Shown in pieces: positions 1 to 60,020 of a stretch of DNA of 64,000 bases. The stretch is from Histomonas meleagridis (taxonomy: Eukaryota > Parabasalia > Tritrichomonadida > Dientamoebidae), in contig WSYJ01000052.1 in NCBI GenBank assembly GCA_020186115.1, positions 372,001 through 436,000 on the forward strand, read 5' to 3'. Made by a program: the position numbers and the translations under genes. The notes under the pieces were generated by a model that saw only the letters and a list, made by a program, of their open reading frames with translations, was not told the origin of the DNA and ran no database searches. Within the stretch, counting starts at the first letter, position 1, and each line of letters begins with the position of its first letter.

Positions 1-2703
1 TCTACAGAATCACCAGACGTTTCCAAAAGCAATGATTTTAATACAGATAATACATCAGACCATAATACCTCTGAAAACACTACAGAACCAGTGACACCGA
101 CCAAAGTCTATGAAGAACCCGAAATCCGTGCTCCTCGTCCACCACATGTTAATTTTCCGCCAAGCGATATCGATGAGATTGTTGGGCTTAAAGGCCTTGA
201 ATACTGCGTCAAACTTAAAGGGCACTCATATTCTGACATAGTCATGATGAATCGTGAAGAAATTTTTAATCATGAAAATGGCGAAGAAATTTTTTCTTGT
301 TTTAAAGAACTTGGAATTAGCACCAAAGAACCGTTTTTTAATCCTCTTTTTGTTGAGATCGAGCGAGTTCTTGACATCAAAGAAGATCAATGCTTAGTTA
401 AATGGTGTGGCCTTGGGTATAAACATTGTACTTGGACTCACGTAAACAAAGTACAGCCCGAGTTAATCGAAAGATATCAACAATTACTGAATCGAGAAAA
501 TGAAGTTGTCGATCAAAACAATGACATTGATATCATGAGTCAATTTTCATTAGATGAGCCACAAAACAAAGCTGTCGAAGCATTATTAGATAAATATAAT
601 AGTGGACAAAACGCAATGTTATATGGAAACATTGGCTCTATTTTAAGACTTGAATTCGCGACTTTAATATATATATTAAAAGAAAAAAAAGGAATAAATG
701 GTCCTTTTTTAATAGTGGTGGCACCTGTCTTATATCAACTAGTAATAAATGAAATGGCAGTATATACCGAATTAATAGTGGTCGGGATACCTGATGATGA
801 TGAAGAAGAATTTGAAAAAATTAAAGAATTTACTTTTATAAATGAAGAAAACAAACCGAAGTTTAACGTTCTCGTCGTATCGGCACCGGTTTTTAAACGG
901 TTCGTTGCGGAGTACCCCAAAATTGATTATCAAATTATTACTGTTGATTATTCTGAAATATATGGAGAAAGAATAAACTTAACTGATATTAATTCTCATA
1001 TGAAAATAATCATTAAGAAGCGCACAGATGAAGACGAAGAAATTGATTCGCAAGATGATTCAACATTTTTACATGATGAATTAACAGTTTTTTGTCCAAT
1101 GTTAATCCCACAAGAGAAGTTATATAAGTCGATAATCTTAGAAAACATTGATTTAGCCACGCAACCTGCAGAAAGTGTTGACATGTCACGTCTCTATGAA
1201 ATCTTTATGAAGCTTAATGCAGTTGCAAATTTTCCATCTGTGTTAAACTCGCAAGACATCTTAATACGTGGGAACAAATCGCAAATCAACAAGAAGCGAT
1301 TTGAAGACTGTGGTAAGATGCGAGTTTTAACACAATTAATAACATATGCGCAAAACACTAAGAAGCGATTAATGGTTTTATGTCGCGACACGACAATTCT
1401 CGACATCATCGAGTTATATTTAGGCGCATTCGAGATTCCATTTGTACGTATTGGCCCATTAGGTGTTAAACGAATGAAACTCGACGATTTTTCACAAGAA
1501 GCTAAAAGCAACAAAAAGATAATAATATTAGCGCAATTCGAAACAAATCCAATTAATTGGTTATCGTTATTGTTGGATTTGATTGTTGTCTTCGATGGAG
1601 TATATAATCCAATGTATTACTTCTCACATGCGCAACGGAAACCTAAAAAAAGGGTTTGTTTATTCATCCGATTACTTTCGGCAAATACGCACGAAAGTTA
1701 TTTAGCAGCTGCAGCGGAACATTTTCAAGATTTGCCGCTGTTCGATATATTCCGTAATGCTGCGATTAATATCTTTCGTCCGATTCGTGAAGTAGTCGAA
1801 AATCAAGTGAAATATTTGAAGAATGAAAAGTTCGATAAAGAATTCGGAGAAATTGGAATTCGTTTCCAATATTTATTCGATGAAGATGGGCCGAAAGTAC
1901 AAAATAATGAAAATGTGAAAAAGGAAAAAATCGACGAAAAAGTACATCATCATGAAAGATATCATTTGAAGAGAAGATATCGAATATTACCTGGAGAAGT
2001 AATAGAAAAGCCTTTACATGGAAGAATTAACATACATAGACATAAGCATTACCATCGAAGAAAAGAAAACGTTTTCGTTTTCGATGAATTTCCAAATATT
2101 TTACAATTTAATGAATTCGATTTATGTCATATTTGGGATTTGAATGAATTGGATGAGTTATTATCATTTGCTTGCAAAATTACCTTCGGGAAATGGGACG
2201 TCATCTCAAATGCGTTAAATAACAAAACTTCTCCTTTATGGGTGAAAGAAACAATTTTTCGTTTGTTGATTTCAATGGTCAATGTAATCTCCTCAAAAAG
2301 TTATCCACTTGTGTGTAAAGTCCTGAAAAGTTACGAGTTTCAATTGCCAAATGAAAATTTCAATAATGTCATTGAATTTATTCAATCGAAATCGGAAAAA
2401 TATTTAAAATCAGAAGTTGGAGGAATCCAAAAAATGATTTGTAATTCAATTATATATAATAAATTCGAGGGCTGTGGAATGAAATTAAATAAGCCTTATG
2501 AATGGTGGACAGATTCGGATGATAAAATGATGATCGAATCTGTATACTCAAATGGTTATTCAACTTTTAACTTAGAAAATGGACAATATACAGTAAGGGA
2601 TGTTAAAATGGACGGAAGATTGATAGCGTTAAGATATAAAGTTGTGATAAAGAGCGAAATAGAAAAATTAAATAAAATTGTTGAAGAAGAAGAAAAATTA
2701 TAA
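1..2703 (+). CDS. Degenerate chromodomain-helicase (CHD/SNF2-like) protein, 5' partial
   Basis: The frame is open from base 1, so the true start lies outside the window; the first methionine-like codon inside (base 91) is a GTG and not a convincing start. Roughly 85-130 residues after base 91 lies a chromodomain-like segment with the CLVKWCGLGYKHCTW motif, close to the second chromodomain of CHD remodellers. A SNF2-type ATPase region follows, but the Walker A position reads MLYGNIGSILRLE instead of the GxGKT motif, the DEAH box reads VDYSE, and the C-terminal helicase lobe lacks the QxxxRxHRxGQ motif (HAQRKPKKRV in its place). The fold order is therefore CHD-like while the catalytic residues are lost. 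A basic, His-rich linker (around base 1930-2060) and an all-alpha C terminus complete it. Likely a nuclear chromatin-binding scaffold rather than a motor; family assignment good, function inferred. Confidence 0.75.
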   Translation, partial: STESPDVSKSNDFNTDNTSDHNTSENTTEPVTPTKVYEEPEIRAPRPPHVNFPPSDIDEIVGLKGLEYCVKLKGHSYSDIVMMNREEIFNHENGEEIFSCFKELGISTKEPFFNPLFVEIERVLDIKEDQCLVKWCGLGYKHCTWTHVNKVQPELIERYQQLLNRENEVVDQNNDIDIMSQFSLDEPQNKAVEALLDKYNSGQNAMLYGNIGSILRLEFATLIYILKEKKGINGPFLIVVAPVLYQLVINEMAVYTELIVVGIPDDDEEEFEKIKEFTFINEENKPKFNVLVVSAPVFKRFVAEYPKIDYQIITVDYSEIYGERINLTDINSHMKIIIKKRTDEDEEIDSQDDSTFLHDELTVFCPMLIPQEKLYKSIILENIDLATQPAESVDMSRLYEIFMKLNAVANFPSVLNSQDILIRGNKSQINKKRFEDCGKMRVLTQLITYAQNTKKRLMVLCRDTTILDIIELYLGAFEIPFVRIGPLGVKRMKLDDFSQEAKSNKKIIILAQFETNPINWLSLLLDLIVVFDGVYNPMYYFSHAQRKPKKRVCLFIRLLSANTHESYLAAAAEHFQDLPLFDIFRNAAINIFRPIREVVENQVKYLKNEKFDKEFGEIGIRFQYLFDEDGPKVQNNENVKKEKIDEKVHHHERYHLKRRYRILPGEVIEKPLHGRINIHRHKHYHRRKENVFVFDEFPNILQFNEFDLCHIWDLNELDELLSFACKITFGKWDVISNALNNKTSPLWVKETIFRLLISMVNVISSKSYPLVCKVLKSYEFQLPNENFNNVIEFIQSKSEKYLKSEVGGIQKMICNSIIYNKFEGCGMKLNKPYEWWTDSDDKMMIESVYSNGYSTFNLENGQYTVRDVKMDGRLIALRYKVVIKSEIEKLNKIVEEEEKL

Positions 2704-55594: not shown

Positions 55595-56620
55595 TTAAAT
55601 AGCAAAAGTTTCCTTTAGGGCGACTGTTTTCTTTAGTCCTGGTCTCTTTTGAAAATATGACTTGTTGTTTATCCTTTTATAAATTATTTCCTTTTGACTA
55701 ACGACTGGTGAAACCCCAGATGACGATCTTCTATGCAAAACATTATCAGTACTTTTCAAAACAGACGAACTCAGTTTCGCGCACTCATACTTTTGAATAT
55801 TTTGGAATATCGGCGAACAAAGTAGTTTTTGCAATGATTCTCTTTTCATTGGATTGACAGCAGTCATTGCTCTAATTAATCGACAAAACTCCGTATCAGC
55901 GCATGACGGAAAAGACAGAATTCCCGTTCTAATTGCCGCTTCCAATTCTTCATTATTTTGAACTCTCCACGGAAGTCTTCCGAATGCGATTACGAAAAAT
56001 GTTATCCCTAACGCCCAAATGTCAGCTAAGAATGGATCGATGTTATCTCTGCATATGATTTCCGGCGCCATGAATGGTAACGAGCCAACGTAACTTTGAA
56101 GTGTTTTTCCTTTTTCTATTTTTTTACTGAGGCCAAAATCGGCAAGTTTCGGCCTTCCATAGTTGTCCAAAAGAATGTTTGCTGGTTTTATATCTCGATG
56201 AGCAATATTCCGTTCATGGCAATATAAAAGAGCATTCATTATTTGGTAACAAAAAGAATAAAGTTTCGGAGGCTTTATTGGGCCTTCTTTTTCGATTATA
56301 TCTTTTAATGAACCACCATTACAATGTTCTAACACGATGTATAAACTTGTGTGGGATTCATCAAAGAAAAATTCATACATTGAGATGATGTTTGGGTGAC
56401 ATAACTCAATGAGCGTTGTCGCTTCATTCTTTGTTTCATTAAACGATAAATTTGGCTGATGAATTCGTTTGATACAAAATTCTTGATTATATTTTTCTGA
56501 ACGTACAAGAAAAACTGATCCAAACCCTCCCGAATTAATGGGACGGACATAATGGTAATGATGTTCTGGGAGTAATTCTCGGATTTCATTGAGGCTGATT
56601 GGAGTTATTACCCCAAGCAT
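55595..56620 (-). CDS. Ser/Thr protein kinase (CAMK/ULK-like)
   Basis: A 341-residue kinase from the first ATG at 56620 (MLGVITPISLNEIRELLPEH); the longer frame begins with GTG. The kinase domain occupies ~residues 22-275 with the loop INSGGFGSVFLV, CIKRI lysine, HRDIKPANILL, DFGLSKK and LPFMAPEI motifs, all catalytically complete. The short C-terminal tail is Ser/Lys-rich and basic. This small single-domain type is abundant in trichomonads; the substrate cannot be inferred. Upstream, a GC-rich patch (GAGGGCGCTTTAAAC, 56749-56763) is probably promoter sequence. Confidence 0.88.
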   Translation of the reverse strand: MLGVITPISLNEIRELLPEHHYHYVRPINSGGFGSVFLVRSEKYNQEFCIKRIHQPNLSFNETKNEATTLIELCHPNIISMYEFFFDESHTSLYIVLEHCNGGSLKDIIEKEGPIKPPKLYSFCYQIMNALLYCHERNIAHRDIKPANILLDNYGRPKLADFGLSKKIEKGKTLQSYVGSLPFMAPEIICRDNIDPFLADIWALGITFFVIAFGRLPWRVQNNEELEAAIRTGILSFPSCADTEFCRLIRAMTAVNPMKRESLQKLLCSPIFQNIQKYECAKLSSSVLKSTDNVLHRRSSSGVSPVVSQKEIIYKRINNKSYFQKRPGLKKTVALKETFAI

Positions 56621-57333
56621 CAGATTTCTGGCAAGTCGAAGTAATTTGACAGTTCCCAGAAAAACCGTCTTCAAATTCAATGCTACAACCCAAATCAAAC
56701 GATGTTTTAACACAGTCTATTTACTTTTTCAATGCATTGAATTTAGGAGGGCGCTTTAAACTAAAGTAAAAAATATATTAATGGAACATAATACTGAAAA
56801 TAATTACGCCACTCTAAATACTTAATAAAGAATAAAGAACTATTTTAAACAGTCCAAAAATAATATTTTTGTTGCAAAATCTTAATTCTGAAAAAATGTG
56901 GTTACACCTTTCAATCTGGATGGGCCATAACCGCTATTCCGCATTGAATACAACAATCCAAAATTGTTCGCCTGTACACGGAGGAAAATAACTTTTTGTT
57001 TATGTCAAACTGTGCAAAATTTTCAAAAGTATACTAAAAGTTAATCTGTTCTCAAAATCAAGCATTTTTTGAAGCATATTAAAATCTACAACTTCTTATA
57101 AAAAAAAAGAAGGTGGAAAAAAAACATTACAAATCCACTGGCGATGCTGTACTGGAAATAGAAGTAAAAATTGAATGGCATGAAAAAACATATTGGAAAT
57201 TTAAAATAAATATTTTTTTTATTAATTTACACCCAAACCTATAAATCATACCAATTCATGGAAAAAGCATGTCTTTATTTATAAAAACTTAGCTAGAGTA
57301 AATCTAAAGTGATTTTTCTTTGGAAAAAAATTG
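56621..57333. other. Intergenic, divergent promoter region
   Basis: About 710 bp between the kinase and histone-fold genes, AT-rich, with no recognised gene. Confidence 0.5.
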
Positions 57334-57341
57334 TCACTTTT
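57334..57341 (+). promoter_or_regulatory. Initiator of the histone-fold doublet gene
   Basis: TCACTTTT fits the trichomonad initiator; A+1 at 57336 gives a 26-nt leader before the ATG at 57362. Confidence 0.6.
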
Positions 57342-57361
57342 AATATAAAATATCTTTGAAA

Positions 57362-57862
57362 ATGATGAGTAATTACCCAATGAACACATTAATAGGACAT
57401 GTTATGAGTGTCCAAAAGCTGATTTATCCAGACTTTGAAATGATAAATAAAGCAGCTATAGTTGTGAGTGGTTTTATTACTGATGCATTTGAACAAATAT
57501 TGAGAAAAATTCCAGATTTTTTAAATGCTAATGAAACCAAATCATTGGATATCCAAATTCTTCGAAAAGCTATTGAACAAGTTCTCCCAGAAAAATGTGC
57601 ATTAGCTTGTATTTCTCAAATCTTATCGAAGAACATCAAAATTCATCTTTCCCAATTGATCTTCACAATTACTTTGTTAAATATGTTCCTTGCAAAGAAG
57701 AACTCATTGATCCCAAAGCACCTGTTTGAATTTCTTATCAATGAAATTATTAAAAATGCAGGACAAAATACAATTTCCTACAAGGAGAAAAGAATTATGC
57801 CTAAACATGTAGTTGACGCAATAAAACTGAATTATTTGCTATTAGGCTATAGCTTGAAATAA
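57362..57862 (+). CDS. Putative H2B-H2A histone-fold doublet protein
   Basis: A 166-residue protein counted from the first ATG at 57362. Its N-terminal half aligns along its length with the H2B fold: IYPDFEMINKAAIVVSGFIT with DAFEQILRKI corresponds to VHPDTGISSKAM...FVNDIFERI, and LDIQILRKAIEQVLPEKCAL to the REIQTAVRLLLPGELAKHA segment. The C-terminal half follows the H2A fold: LFEFLINEIIKNAG matches YLTAEILELAGNAA and KRIMPKHVVDAI matches TRIIPRHLQLAI. Basic tails are missing and the charge is low. Two folds in the order H2B-H2A are known from giant-virus doublets; in a cell this would be unusual. A pair of NF-Y/TAF-like folds is the alternative. Its 5' initiator is perfect and the frame intact, so it is probably expressed. 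Confidence 0.7.
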   Translation: MMSNYPMNTLIGHVMSVQKLIYPDFEMINKAAIVVSGFITDAFEQILRKIPDFLNANETKSLDIQILRKAIEQVLPEKCALACISQILSKNIKIHLSQLIFTITLLNMFLAKKNSLIPKHLFEFLINEIIKNAGQNTISYKEKRIMPKHVVDAIKLNYLLLGYSLK

Positions 57863-57968
57863 AAAATATATTTCATTAAATGTTTACATATACTAACGAT
57901 AGATTTTTGAATGCTTTTTGATACGAAACGCGCAGAATTTTCTATCGTTTCACACAAGCCATTTTTTT

Positions 57969-58988
57969 TTAGTCAATATCCTCTAACAATTCGATTGGCT
58001 TTTCCTGATTGGATATTAGAGTCCATTCAGAATACCTAAAGCATTTGAACCGAATAATTTGGTTATATACAAGAGATGCAAATGCATAAAGTATTAATGC
58101 AAAGATCTGCCAAATGCTTTTTGTCGACAATAATTCCCCATATTCTCCGCCCATGATAAGGAGTATAGTCCACGTTAGAACAGAAACAATAATGTCGATC
58201 ACAACAAAGTGCACTGACTGTCTGTCGCCAGGAAGCAAAACAGTTGACGATGATGACAAAAATGCGGAAAGTATCAAAATGAAGGCACCTAAAATGATCT
58301 TGACAGAAGAAAACATAACAGAAAGTCCATCAATGACATTCTCAAGTGCGCCTCCAGATAATGAAGATACATCAGATCCGGGAATAACATAAGCTAATGG
58401 TAAAATAATGACAGCAGAGAAGATGAATGCACATATCCCTTCACCAGAAACAATTTGGGAATCAAGAATTTTGACTTCATGTAATAATTTCTTTTCAAAA
58501 AATATCTGAAATACTTTGAATATTTGTGAACAAAGTGCTGCAAATGGTGGCCAAATTGGTCCTTCGTTTGCAAGAAATGCAAAGATTGTAGCAATAACGA
58601 TTATTCCAATGGCAAAAAATTGATACCCTCGTGGAATCTTTCCAGCCGTAACAATTGGCATAAATAGAAAGATTGAATGCCTGATAATAAAACAAATTGA
58701 TGCTTTTCCATAAACAACAGCAAAATTAAATACAACTAATGAAAATGTATAGAAAATAGATGGGATAATTAAGCGAATAAAAGGTTTTGGTTGGAAGCTT
58801 TGACGATCAATTACCCAGACAAGCATAACTCCAATGAAAATGAAAAAAGTCATGGTAATTGGTTTTTTAAATTGTTTAACATCATCATTTTCTTCATATG
58901 TAATTTGACTCAGAACTTTGATCATTATATCATTTGCAACATATGAAAGTGCTGAAAATACCGAAAAGAGTACTGTTTGACAATCCAT
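57969..58988 (-). CDS. DMT-superfamily (SLC35-like) membrane transporter
   Basis: A 339-residue protein with about ten hydrophobic helices and the two-fold repeat plan of nucleotide-sugar and drug/metabolite transporters. Helices are clear at ~residues 48-62 (MTFFIFIGVMLVWVI), 73-93, 121-141 and 205-225, and FEKKLLHEVKILDSQIVSGE between the repeats resembles the SLC35F6-type linker. Location is probably an endomembrane; substrate unknown. A short acidic C-terminal tail (IELLEDID) is cytosolic. It is convergent with the histone-fold gene, about 100 bp apart. Confidence 0.75.
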   Translation of the reverse strand: MDCQTVLFSVFSALSYVANDIMIKVLSQITYEENDDVKQFKKPITMTFFIFIGVMLVWVIDRQSFQPKPFIRLIIPSIFYTFSLVVFNFAVVYGKASICFIIRHSIFLFMPIVTAGKIPRGYQFFAIGIIVIATIFAFLANEGPIWPPFAALCSQIFKVFQIFFEKKLLHEVKILDSQIVSGEGICAFIFSAVIILPLAYVIPGSDVSSLSGGALENVIDGLSVMFSSVKIILGAFILILSAFLSSSSTVLLPGDRQSVHFVVIDIIVSVLTWTILLIMGGEYGELLSTKSIWQIFALILYAFASLVYNQIIRFKCFRYSEWTLISNQEKPIELLEDID

Positions 58989-59430
58989 ATGTTATTATTC
59001 AAAAAGTGCCAATAGAACGATAAGAGATTTATGTCAAATCACATTGCTTTTGACCAAATATTGATTCAAAACATTTGAGTTTAAAGTAAAGCTAACAAAT
59101 ATTGTAAACGTTCGTTATTAGGAATAGGTATGGATAGATAAGCTATATCGAAACCAAATAAAAGAAAAGAAATTTAAAATATGGCATTTTGCAAATAAAA
59201 ATTTGGATTCCAACAATAAATATTTCTTCATATACTTGTATGCCTATCTTATAGCTGTATTGAATACTGTTGGCAGAATAATACTGTAGCACACACGAGA
59301 ACCTCATATAATACCATTTTTAATGTAAACCTATTACAAATAAGAAAACCAAAAAAGTTATACGTATGAAAAATTACATTGAACAAACTATAAATATTTA
59401 AAAAAAAAAATCGCTTTGATCAAATCTACG
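58989..59430. other. Intergenic with diverged repeat copy 3
   Basis: About 440 bp. From about 59260 to 59400 there are stretches matching the 3' flank of the Rho-like gene at 13.1-13.2 kb (for example CAGAATAATACTGTAG/CAGAATACTGTAG, AAAAAAGTTAT...TTACA(T/G)TGAACAA). It extends the duplicated segment of the pseudogene. Confidence 0.5.
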
Positions 59431-60020
59431 CTCAAAAGTTAGTAAAAATTACATTTCTTTGCTTAGCTTTTTTTGTTTTGGTTGCCTTTATAATGATATA
59501 AAGCTGCTTCAAAGGCAGCTTTAAAAACTTGTTCAAGGTTCGTCTGACGTTAAAAATGTCATTTTAACATGTTAATGTAAGTAAATACGTGGATTTCGTT
59601 TACAGCAACTGGCCTTTTGAGGTGATTACAGGAGCTTCTTTTGGTTGGCACTGAGAAGGATTCCGTTCATACTCATATCTGAAAGACTAACCAAAATAAT
59701 CAGAGCGCTCTCGCATAAATCCTAGCCTGCAAACTCAGGAAGATACTCTTCTTTTTGAATATTTTCAAAAGATTGTGGATTAACTAATGAAAAGCAAGCA
59801 ATAAATCATTTGTGTATGGTGCGTAGGTTAAAGGTCGCAAGCTCGTATGGTCACGGCATGAGCTGGTTTTTGTATCAAGATAGATTTCGCCAGATTCCAA
59901 TTTATGTAATTTTCACGAAAATCTGGTAAAGACAACTTCGTGGTTAGTAAGTCTTTCCAACACGCATGTCAGCTGTAACAACTATTCTGGGCGGACCATG
60001 AGGTTTGTTGCGCATTTAAA
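59430..60020 (-). pseudogene. Rho-like GTPase pseudogene, second copy
   Basis: Reading on the minus strand from about 60020, the locus matches the Rho-like gene at 13282-13895 throughout: PPRIVVTADMRVGKT (Gly to Ala and Ser to Met changes in the P-loop), then CFSLVNPQSFENIQKE, LIILVSLSD and later EQVFKAAFEAAL-like codons. Many frameshifts and stops (for example after VGKTY and within the LPEFAG segment) mean no product is possible. Similarity continues into the 3' flank, so a segment of at least 700 bp was duplicated. Confidence 0.85.

Follow-up and report, generated by a model that had tools for sequence, protein, structure and literature searches.

As judged from sequence, the N-terminal half of a small predicted protein of Histomonas meleagridis is confirmed as H2B-like and its C-terminal half as H2A-like, the two being joined in one tailless chain. 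A preliminary description of the DNA had read the product as an H2B-H2A doublet, with H2B preceding H2A as in Marseilleviridae; this reading is backed by profile searches, pairwise comparison and a search of PDB sequences, and the order is recovered both in alignments and by hhalign. The account favored here, with somewhat better than even confidence, is that the gene derives from joined copies of H2B and H2A that have diverged to become a specialised histone pair. The fold and the order are known from elsewhere; a doublet that belongs to a cellular eukaryote and has sequence of that eukaryote's own lineage is not known to have been described.

The gene and its genomic setting

The window, i.e. 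the whole stretch of 64,000 nucleotides that was analysed, is C36:372001-436000 in the copy of the genome of the virulent strain of H. meleagridis that was searched (43,276,120 bases in 121 contigs). The organism is a parabasalid of poultry, in line with the preliminary description, which had supposed a parabasalid source. In the available part of the relevant paper the virulent assembly is given as 43,414,808 bases in 187 contigs (PMC8529796), and the copy searched here seems to be without some small contigs of the published assembly.

The gene had been placed at 57334..57862. A frame of 166 codons does run to the second of these positions (stop codon 57860-57862), but the first is merely the initial base of TCACTTT; a reading frame begun there is full of stops, and the ATG lies at 57362 (Table 1). 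Similarly, H2B and H2A had been assigned to residues ~20-100 and ~105-165, and while both matches stood, their extents became 13-86 and 99-162. According to the alignments and AF2, the short connector replaces most of the H2B C-terminal helix together with the H2A N-tail. The isoelectric point is 9.4 for the whole protein, with an acidic N half (5.7) and a basic C half (10.0).

Table 1. The doublet gene, its parts and its flanking genes (nucleotide positions are those of the window; helices are given in residues of the protein)
Feature	Position	Strand	Remarks
H2B-H2A doublet gene	57362..57862	+	one open frame, 166 aa; sole full match in genome
H2B-like histone fold	57398..57619	+	residues 13-86; PDB phmmer, Smith-Waterman, hhalign
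Predicted helices, H2B half	7-21, 25-56, 64-74, short aC 77-88		AF2, low confidence
Short connector	57620..57655	+	residues 87-98; alignments, AF2
H2A-like histone fold	57656..57847	+	residues 99-162; hhalign, Smith-Waterman, PDB phmmer, residue map
Predicted helices, H2A half	97-111, 119-135, 148-160		AF2, low confidence
TCACTTT initiator-like motif	57334..57340	+	28 bases upstream of ATG; weak evidence
Hydrophobic 339-aa protein, tail-to-tail neighbour	57969..58988	-	without Pfam match at E <= 0.1
Protein kinase, upstream neighbour	55595..56620	-	PF00069 E 3.8e-59

The neighbours examined are ordinary cellular genes. Those close by are for a protein kinase, for a TPR protein and for the hydrophobic protein of Table 1; farther away are genes for a helicase of the UPF1 type and for a Sec1 protein. 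No tandem repeats were found in 56500-59500. At a different site in the window (244-2703, plus strand) an 819-aa protein has a chromodomain and an HDA2-3 match, and by its domains is a chromatin protein.

Used as a genome query, the doublet gave 17 matches, itself and 16 at H2B genes (those read being canonical H2B), making it single-copy here. Separate genes for H2A, H2B, H3 and H4 are also present in the genome, with 16 H2B and 17 full-length H2A matches. Three divergent H3 genes (L034, L036 and L037, on C50, C86 and C82), the last two nearly identical, encode proteins of 132 and 141 aa whose N-tails are unusual, and are candidates for centromeric or variant H3. In all six distinct complete H2A proteins read, VVPHIHK or VIPHIHK is found near the C-terminus, a motif that we take to resemble that of H2A.Z; the best 60 PDB matches of the organism's own H2A domain are canonical-type H2A, and no separate H2A.Z gene was met among the H2A genes of the genome that were read.

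Histone types of the two halves

In hhalign comparisons with four small profiles, one per core histone (3-5 sequences each), the N half matched H2B at probability 94 (E 1.6e-7), with H2A, H3 and H4 reaching only 0.1-0.2, and the C half matched H2A at probability 76 (E 2.2e-5, 64 columns, 33% identity) in an alignment spanning the first H2A helix to beyond the third. The second-best profile for the C half, H3, had a probability of 4 and a z of 5.0. Profile-profile z values, from 100 shuffles each, were 15.3 for the N half with H2B and 11.0 for the C half with H2A. In Smith-Waterman comparisons with 11 histone-fold proteins from the same genome (2000 shuffles each), the N half scored z 20.5 with H2B, the next being 3.0, and the C half z 8.4 with H2A, the next, a divergent H3, being 3.9; 0 of 2000 shuffles reached either of the two leading scores.

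A PDB search with the whole protein yielded 177 distinct sequences at E <= 10, the best 60 of which all align from residue 9-14 to at least residue 86 with H2B or H2B-containing chains, and two chains with H2A.Z/H2A.W plus H2B align unbroken over residues 13-155. With the C half there were 120 at E <= 10, and 58 of the best 60 were H2A or H2A-containing, though the best match was weak (E 0.56). An H2A from a contig of another eukaryote is 30% identical over residues 97-165 (E 3.8e-4 in a small set). Family searches were less forthcoming. Histone (PF00125) was the sole one of 24,736 Pfam families at E <= 10, with E 0.0078 for the whole protein and 0.0049 for the C half, i.e. 16.9-17.6 bits versus a curated cut-off of 26.4, and the N half by itself had no Pfam match. 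The doublet gene was absent both from the 89 matches of a genome-wide search with the Histone family at E <= 10 and from the 22 matches of a genome-wide search with the organism's own H2A, and the C half as genome query found itself and one other place, without own H2A. That other place (C36:361738, E 0.039) was set aside as chance, its encoded protein looking hydrophobic and membrane-bound.

The burial pattern is retained in the H2B half, where 31/35 hydrophobic and 34/43 polar positions are kept (p 1.2e-9) at an identity to H2B of ~29% (23/78), and the pattern persists at the 55 non-identical positions (p 9.9e-5). No such signal was present at the 24 non-identical a2-a3 positions of the C half (p 0.68), and an amphipathicity scan was uninformative. 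Each half matched its core histone fold better than other histone-fold families, that of H2A with a weak side in the Pfam, PDB and genome searches. Order and both identities are well supported, the H2A half less so and only where the method is more sensitive than family search.

The NF-YB/NF-YC and TAF families, which the preliminary description had put forward as competing assignments, did worse: PF00808, NF-Y and the TAF families had no Pfam match at E <= 10, and four TAF proteins of the genome, TAF11 and TAF13 included, gave z <= 2.8 with the halves. Identity as SPT3, which we take to be a TAF13-like fold followed by a TAF11-like one, was rejected on both counts. Separate TAF11-type (C112, C2) and TAF13-type (C121, with C120 below the cut-off) genes occur in the genome.

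Residues lost and residues kept

The residue map is alignment-based and uses human residue numbers. In the H2A half, arginines R29, R32, R35 and R42 are gone, loop 1 is ~9 residues shorter (6 in one alignment, 9 in others), and the four-residue acidic-patch stretch NDEE is missing, D90, E91 and E92 being deleted with it. E64 is replaced by K. The chain ends after the third H2A helix, and docking region and C-tail are consequently absent. Retained are E56, E61 and, in loop 2, K74 and R77. The H2B half is without R86, E76, Y83, R92, E105, E113 and the N-tail; three of these are accounted for by the substitutions E76K, Y83A and R92Q, at positions that presumably make the H4 four-helix-bundle contacts. 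Neither a basic H2B N-tail with a long C-terminal helix (the predicted aC covers 77-88 or 81-88, at low confidence) nor an H2A docking region with an intact acidic patch was found. The absence of basic tails, as previously described, is borne out. The accompanying statement that most DNA-contact lysines are absent holds for the H2A arginines listed and for H2B R86, but K74 and R77 remain.

The residues lost presumably serve in docking to the octamer, in the acidic patch and in contacts with DNA, not in the heterodimer core, and with that core kept, the pattern suits a specialised pseudodimer better than it does a histone for packaging. Structure prediction adds little at present: AlphaFold mean pLDDT was 43.7 without an alignment and 51.2 with one of 11 rows, the C half was nearly all below 50, and neither model had a confident pseudodimer or handshake.

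A frame that appears to have been maintained

The claim of an intact frame holds. At a stop probability of 0.083 per codon, ~14 stops are expected in 166 codons and none is observed; the chance of 166 open codons from the given start is 5.6e-7 at this composition, with ~0.006 such occurrences expected over the six frames of the window. Codon log-odds are 0.237 in frame, above the other five frames and inside the span of 0.112-0.417 for 19 large ORFs. The freedom from stops at ~29% H2B identity, together with a codon score in the normal range, argues indirectly for a frame long kept under selection.

The rival proposition is that the fusion is a pseudogene in decay, or that the open frame has no function. 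Strong erosion of the H2A half and an orthologue search empty at E <= 10 (below) could be cited for it, yet the frame has stayed free of stops while ~70% of the amino acids of the H2B half changed, and its codon score is that of the large ORFs. Also telling is the state of other H2A remnants in the genome: beside the 17 full-length H2A matches are five short pieces, three of which carry stops even though the pieces are still 50-88% identical. Decay is accordingly an improbable, though not a negligible, explanation. Partial or odd H2A copies were seen at six sites (C108:96946, C9:177069, C1:1190789, C30:1332293 and 1332365, and C68:50652), five being the partial pieces and one a full-length H2A, 87% identical, whose N-tail starts in another frame.

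From a consensus initiator, expression had been suggested. The motif is present, but it is weak evidence, standing 28 bases from the ATG and occurring in 18% of random 60-base stretches; TCACTTT is within 60 bases upstream of 2 of the 19 large ORFs, and in 4 of 7 histone genes examined, where it is 11-13 bases upstream.

Origin of the fusion

The H2B half scores 115 with the organism's own H2B and 84-92 with six other H2Bs, namely four of the seven contig H2Bs L094-L100, from eukaryote-looking contigs, and two from the PDB (L098, L099 and L100 are partial and were left out of the lineage test; L098 scored 31 and L099 52). Own H2B is distinct from all six at 20 positions; the doublet has the residue of own H2B at 5 of these and that of one of the others at 1, and with three PDB sequences the corresponding counts are 6, 5 and 7 versus 1, 0 and 0, in a comparison with few outgroups and with other parabasalids lying outside it. 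That the H2B half is closest to own H2B among the seven favors fusion within this lineage, its own H2B having been joined to an H2A. The H2A half, with 63 for own H2A and 61-68 at full length for others (61 for turtle, 66 and 68 for contigs), is without lineage preference. Simple read-through would not yield an H2B-H2A fusion, as the genes of the canonical H2A/H2B pairs read (L002, L003, L008, L043, L044 and L079) are head to head; H2A genes L080 and L081 have no H2B within the stretch fetched.

The preliminary description had entertained a virus-derived or ancestral fusion, and this is disfavored. Capture of a doublet from a giant virus or similar source would suit the H2B-H2A order, which is the common viral one in the available portions of PMC9145170 and PMC11222145, and a size near that of the 168-aa Melbournevirus variant. 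Set against that are the best match of the H2B half, to own H2B, and the cellular nature of the neighbours examined. No relative turned up when viral contigs were scanned twice with the doublet and three times with own H2B or H2A, which says little since the own H2A and H2B queries also reached no viral histone. Taken together, viral capture is very improbable. Scanning of prokaryote contigs with the doublet yielded no relative either.

Among contigs filed as bacterial MAGs, L094-L100 contain eukaryotic-looking H2B genes or pieces, with H2A and H3 also in L094, L095 and L096 and H4 in the latter two; L097 (JAGYIR010000010.1:120541-126798) is within a 603-kb contig filed as Crocinitomicaceae. 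A second H2B-H2A ORF, L101:2971-3666 on the plus strand, is in CAJWHT010000259.1 (ERR599032), which is filed as a Desulfobacteraceae MAG. It has a truncated H2B part and a lysine-rich repeated tail, and is at the contig end directly after bacterial NfeD-NfeD-FloA genes. As the sequence, by eye, is AT-rich from ~2975, the contig is probably chimeric, joining bacterial sequence to that of a giant virus or protist. This doublet-like ORF scores 52 with the C half and 23 with the N half, below canonical histones, which does not speak for viral capture, though the truncation of its H2B part limits the comparison.

An orthologue search over ~5.8 billion proteins (whose source labels, known from another search, are those of ncbi, uniref and nr records and cover eukaryotes) gave 26 candidates with shared words and none at E <= 10. 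The matched control was a further divergent histone-fold protein from the genome; it gave one relative, of 79% identity, whose longest contig is 1892 bases (ENA). The control's own record was not returned, so that the reach of the search is short, with Histomonas proteins apparently outside it, and the negative is not proof of absence from other parabasalids. An alignment search with the doublet and the joined own H2B and H2A cores gave 7983 proteins at E <= 0.01; the three that were read among the best 120 (P0001, P0055 and P0110) are predicted vertebrate H2A-H2A fusions that were discounted as probable mis-annotations (compare the available text of PMC9145170).

Possible roles

The course of events envisaged is that an H2B copy became joined to an H2A copy inside the parabasalid lineage and that fast divergence followed. 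The halves would fold back on each other as an H2A-H2B handshake by way of the short connector, in which case stoichiometry would be fixed and neither half would be free for canonical partners. Loss of what are presumed to be octamer-docking and acidic-patch features, with the heterodimer core kept, points to a specialised histone pair. It may be a minor variant of the nucleosome or, somewhat likelier, a nuclear pseudodimer off the octamer. The latter would act as a regulator or binding partner, and the former would give partly wrapped, unstable nucleosomes, of the sort formed by short H2A variants and by the Melbournevirus mini-doublet. A bulk packaging role is unlikely, and the role of such a fast-evolving single-chain pseudodimer is probably specialised and non-canonical.

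Within this framework, a non-nucleosomal pseudodimer serving as DNA-binding regulator or scaffold, in the manner of NC2/NF-Y or the SOS histone domain, is a serious contender at a little under even chances. The conserved core pattern of the H2B half and the loss of surfaces presumed to be for octamer docking suit it, although Histone being the only Pfam family at E <= 10 does not. Eukaryotic double histone folds outside chromatin are also known, e.g. those of SOS and ABTB2 in the part of PMC13088155 available. Perhaps one chance in three can be given to the doublet replacing the H2A-H2B dimer at certain places to generate open, partly wrapped nucleosomes. Retention of H2A loop-2 K74 and R77 and the basic C half speak for such a variant, whereas the acidic N half, the loss of the presumed H4 contacts (E76K, Y83A, R92Q) and that of the entire H2A docking region weigh against it. 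Its losses are nevertheless like those of mammalian short H2A variants (available text of PMC7226823) and of the 168-aa Melbournevirus variant doublet, which binds 90 bp (available text of PMC12297534). The fuller proposition, that an expressed eukaryotic H2B-H2A fusion is built into nucleosomes as an obligate single-chain dimer, converging on the Melbournevirus mini-doublet, is a long shot, at about one in four. If true, eukaryotic chromatin is not closed to fused histones, and these can originate anew from the histones of the host. The gene, which is small and present once, can be tested in vitro.

Relation to known fused and variant histones

Histone doublets of archaea and bacteria are comparable in having tandem folds and an intramolecular pseudodimer; to our knowledge, their halves are not of the H2B and H2A types. 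For eukaryotes, the literature is cautious, at least in those portions of it that were available. Fused doublets are considered unconfirmed, with putative animal cases appearing mis-annotated and real ones not rigorously excludable (PMC9145170); fusions are described as not observed and, elsewhere in the same paper, as 'rare', with Trichomonas omitted from trees as fast-evolving (PMC11222145); and fused core histones are as a rule absent (PMC10919886). One of these three papers (two reviews and a research article) argues that, before the last common ancestor, a ratchet locked histones into separate proteins. No parabasalid fused histone was found among the listed papers on fused or parabasalid histones (in one listing 40 of 120), which stops short of proof, subscription papers and preprints being outside that scope. 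A eukaryotic doublet derived from histones of the host itself would, if real, be a counter-example to the ratchet argument, a natural experiment on the price of fusion in tails, docking and acidic patch, and a warning against taking every H2B-H2A doublet for an ancient relic.

The eukaryotic double histone folds tabulated in the available part of PMC13088155 are those of SOS, ABTB2, SPT3 and HSIH proteins, among which no H2B-H2A pair is seen in that part. SPT3, SOS and ABTB2 share with the Histomonas protein the presence of two histone folds in one chain, but in SOS and ABTB2 the folds are within multidomain proteins, and none of the three is presented there as pairing H2B with H2A. A different parallel is with mammalian H2A.B, H2A.L, H2A.P and H2A.Q, which are lineage-restricted and in which the C-tail, the acidic patch and the stability of docking have been lost (PMC7226823, in its available part); these, however, are singlets that pair with a separate H2B, whereas the Histomonas H2B is covalently joined.

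Closest is Melbournevirus mel_149 (168 aa), for which the available portion of PMC12297534 provides several points of likeness: H2B then H2A in one chain of nearly equal length, short tails, a short H2B aC, a short connector, a reduced docking region from which the docking stem is missing, and coexistence with a main supply of H2A and H2B. It differs in being viral and in having an H2A part ~40% identical to H2A and an H2B part that is unrecognisable. In the Histomonas doublet, by contrast, the better conserved half is that of H2B, which is nearest to the H2B of the host itself, and the main supply consists of separate singlets.
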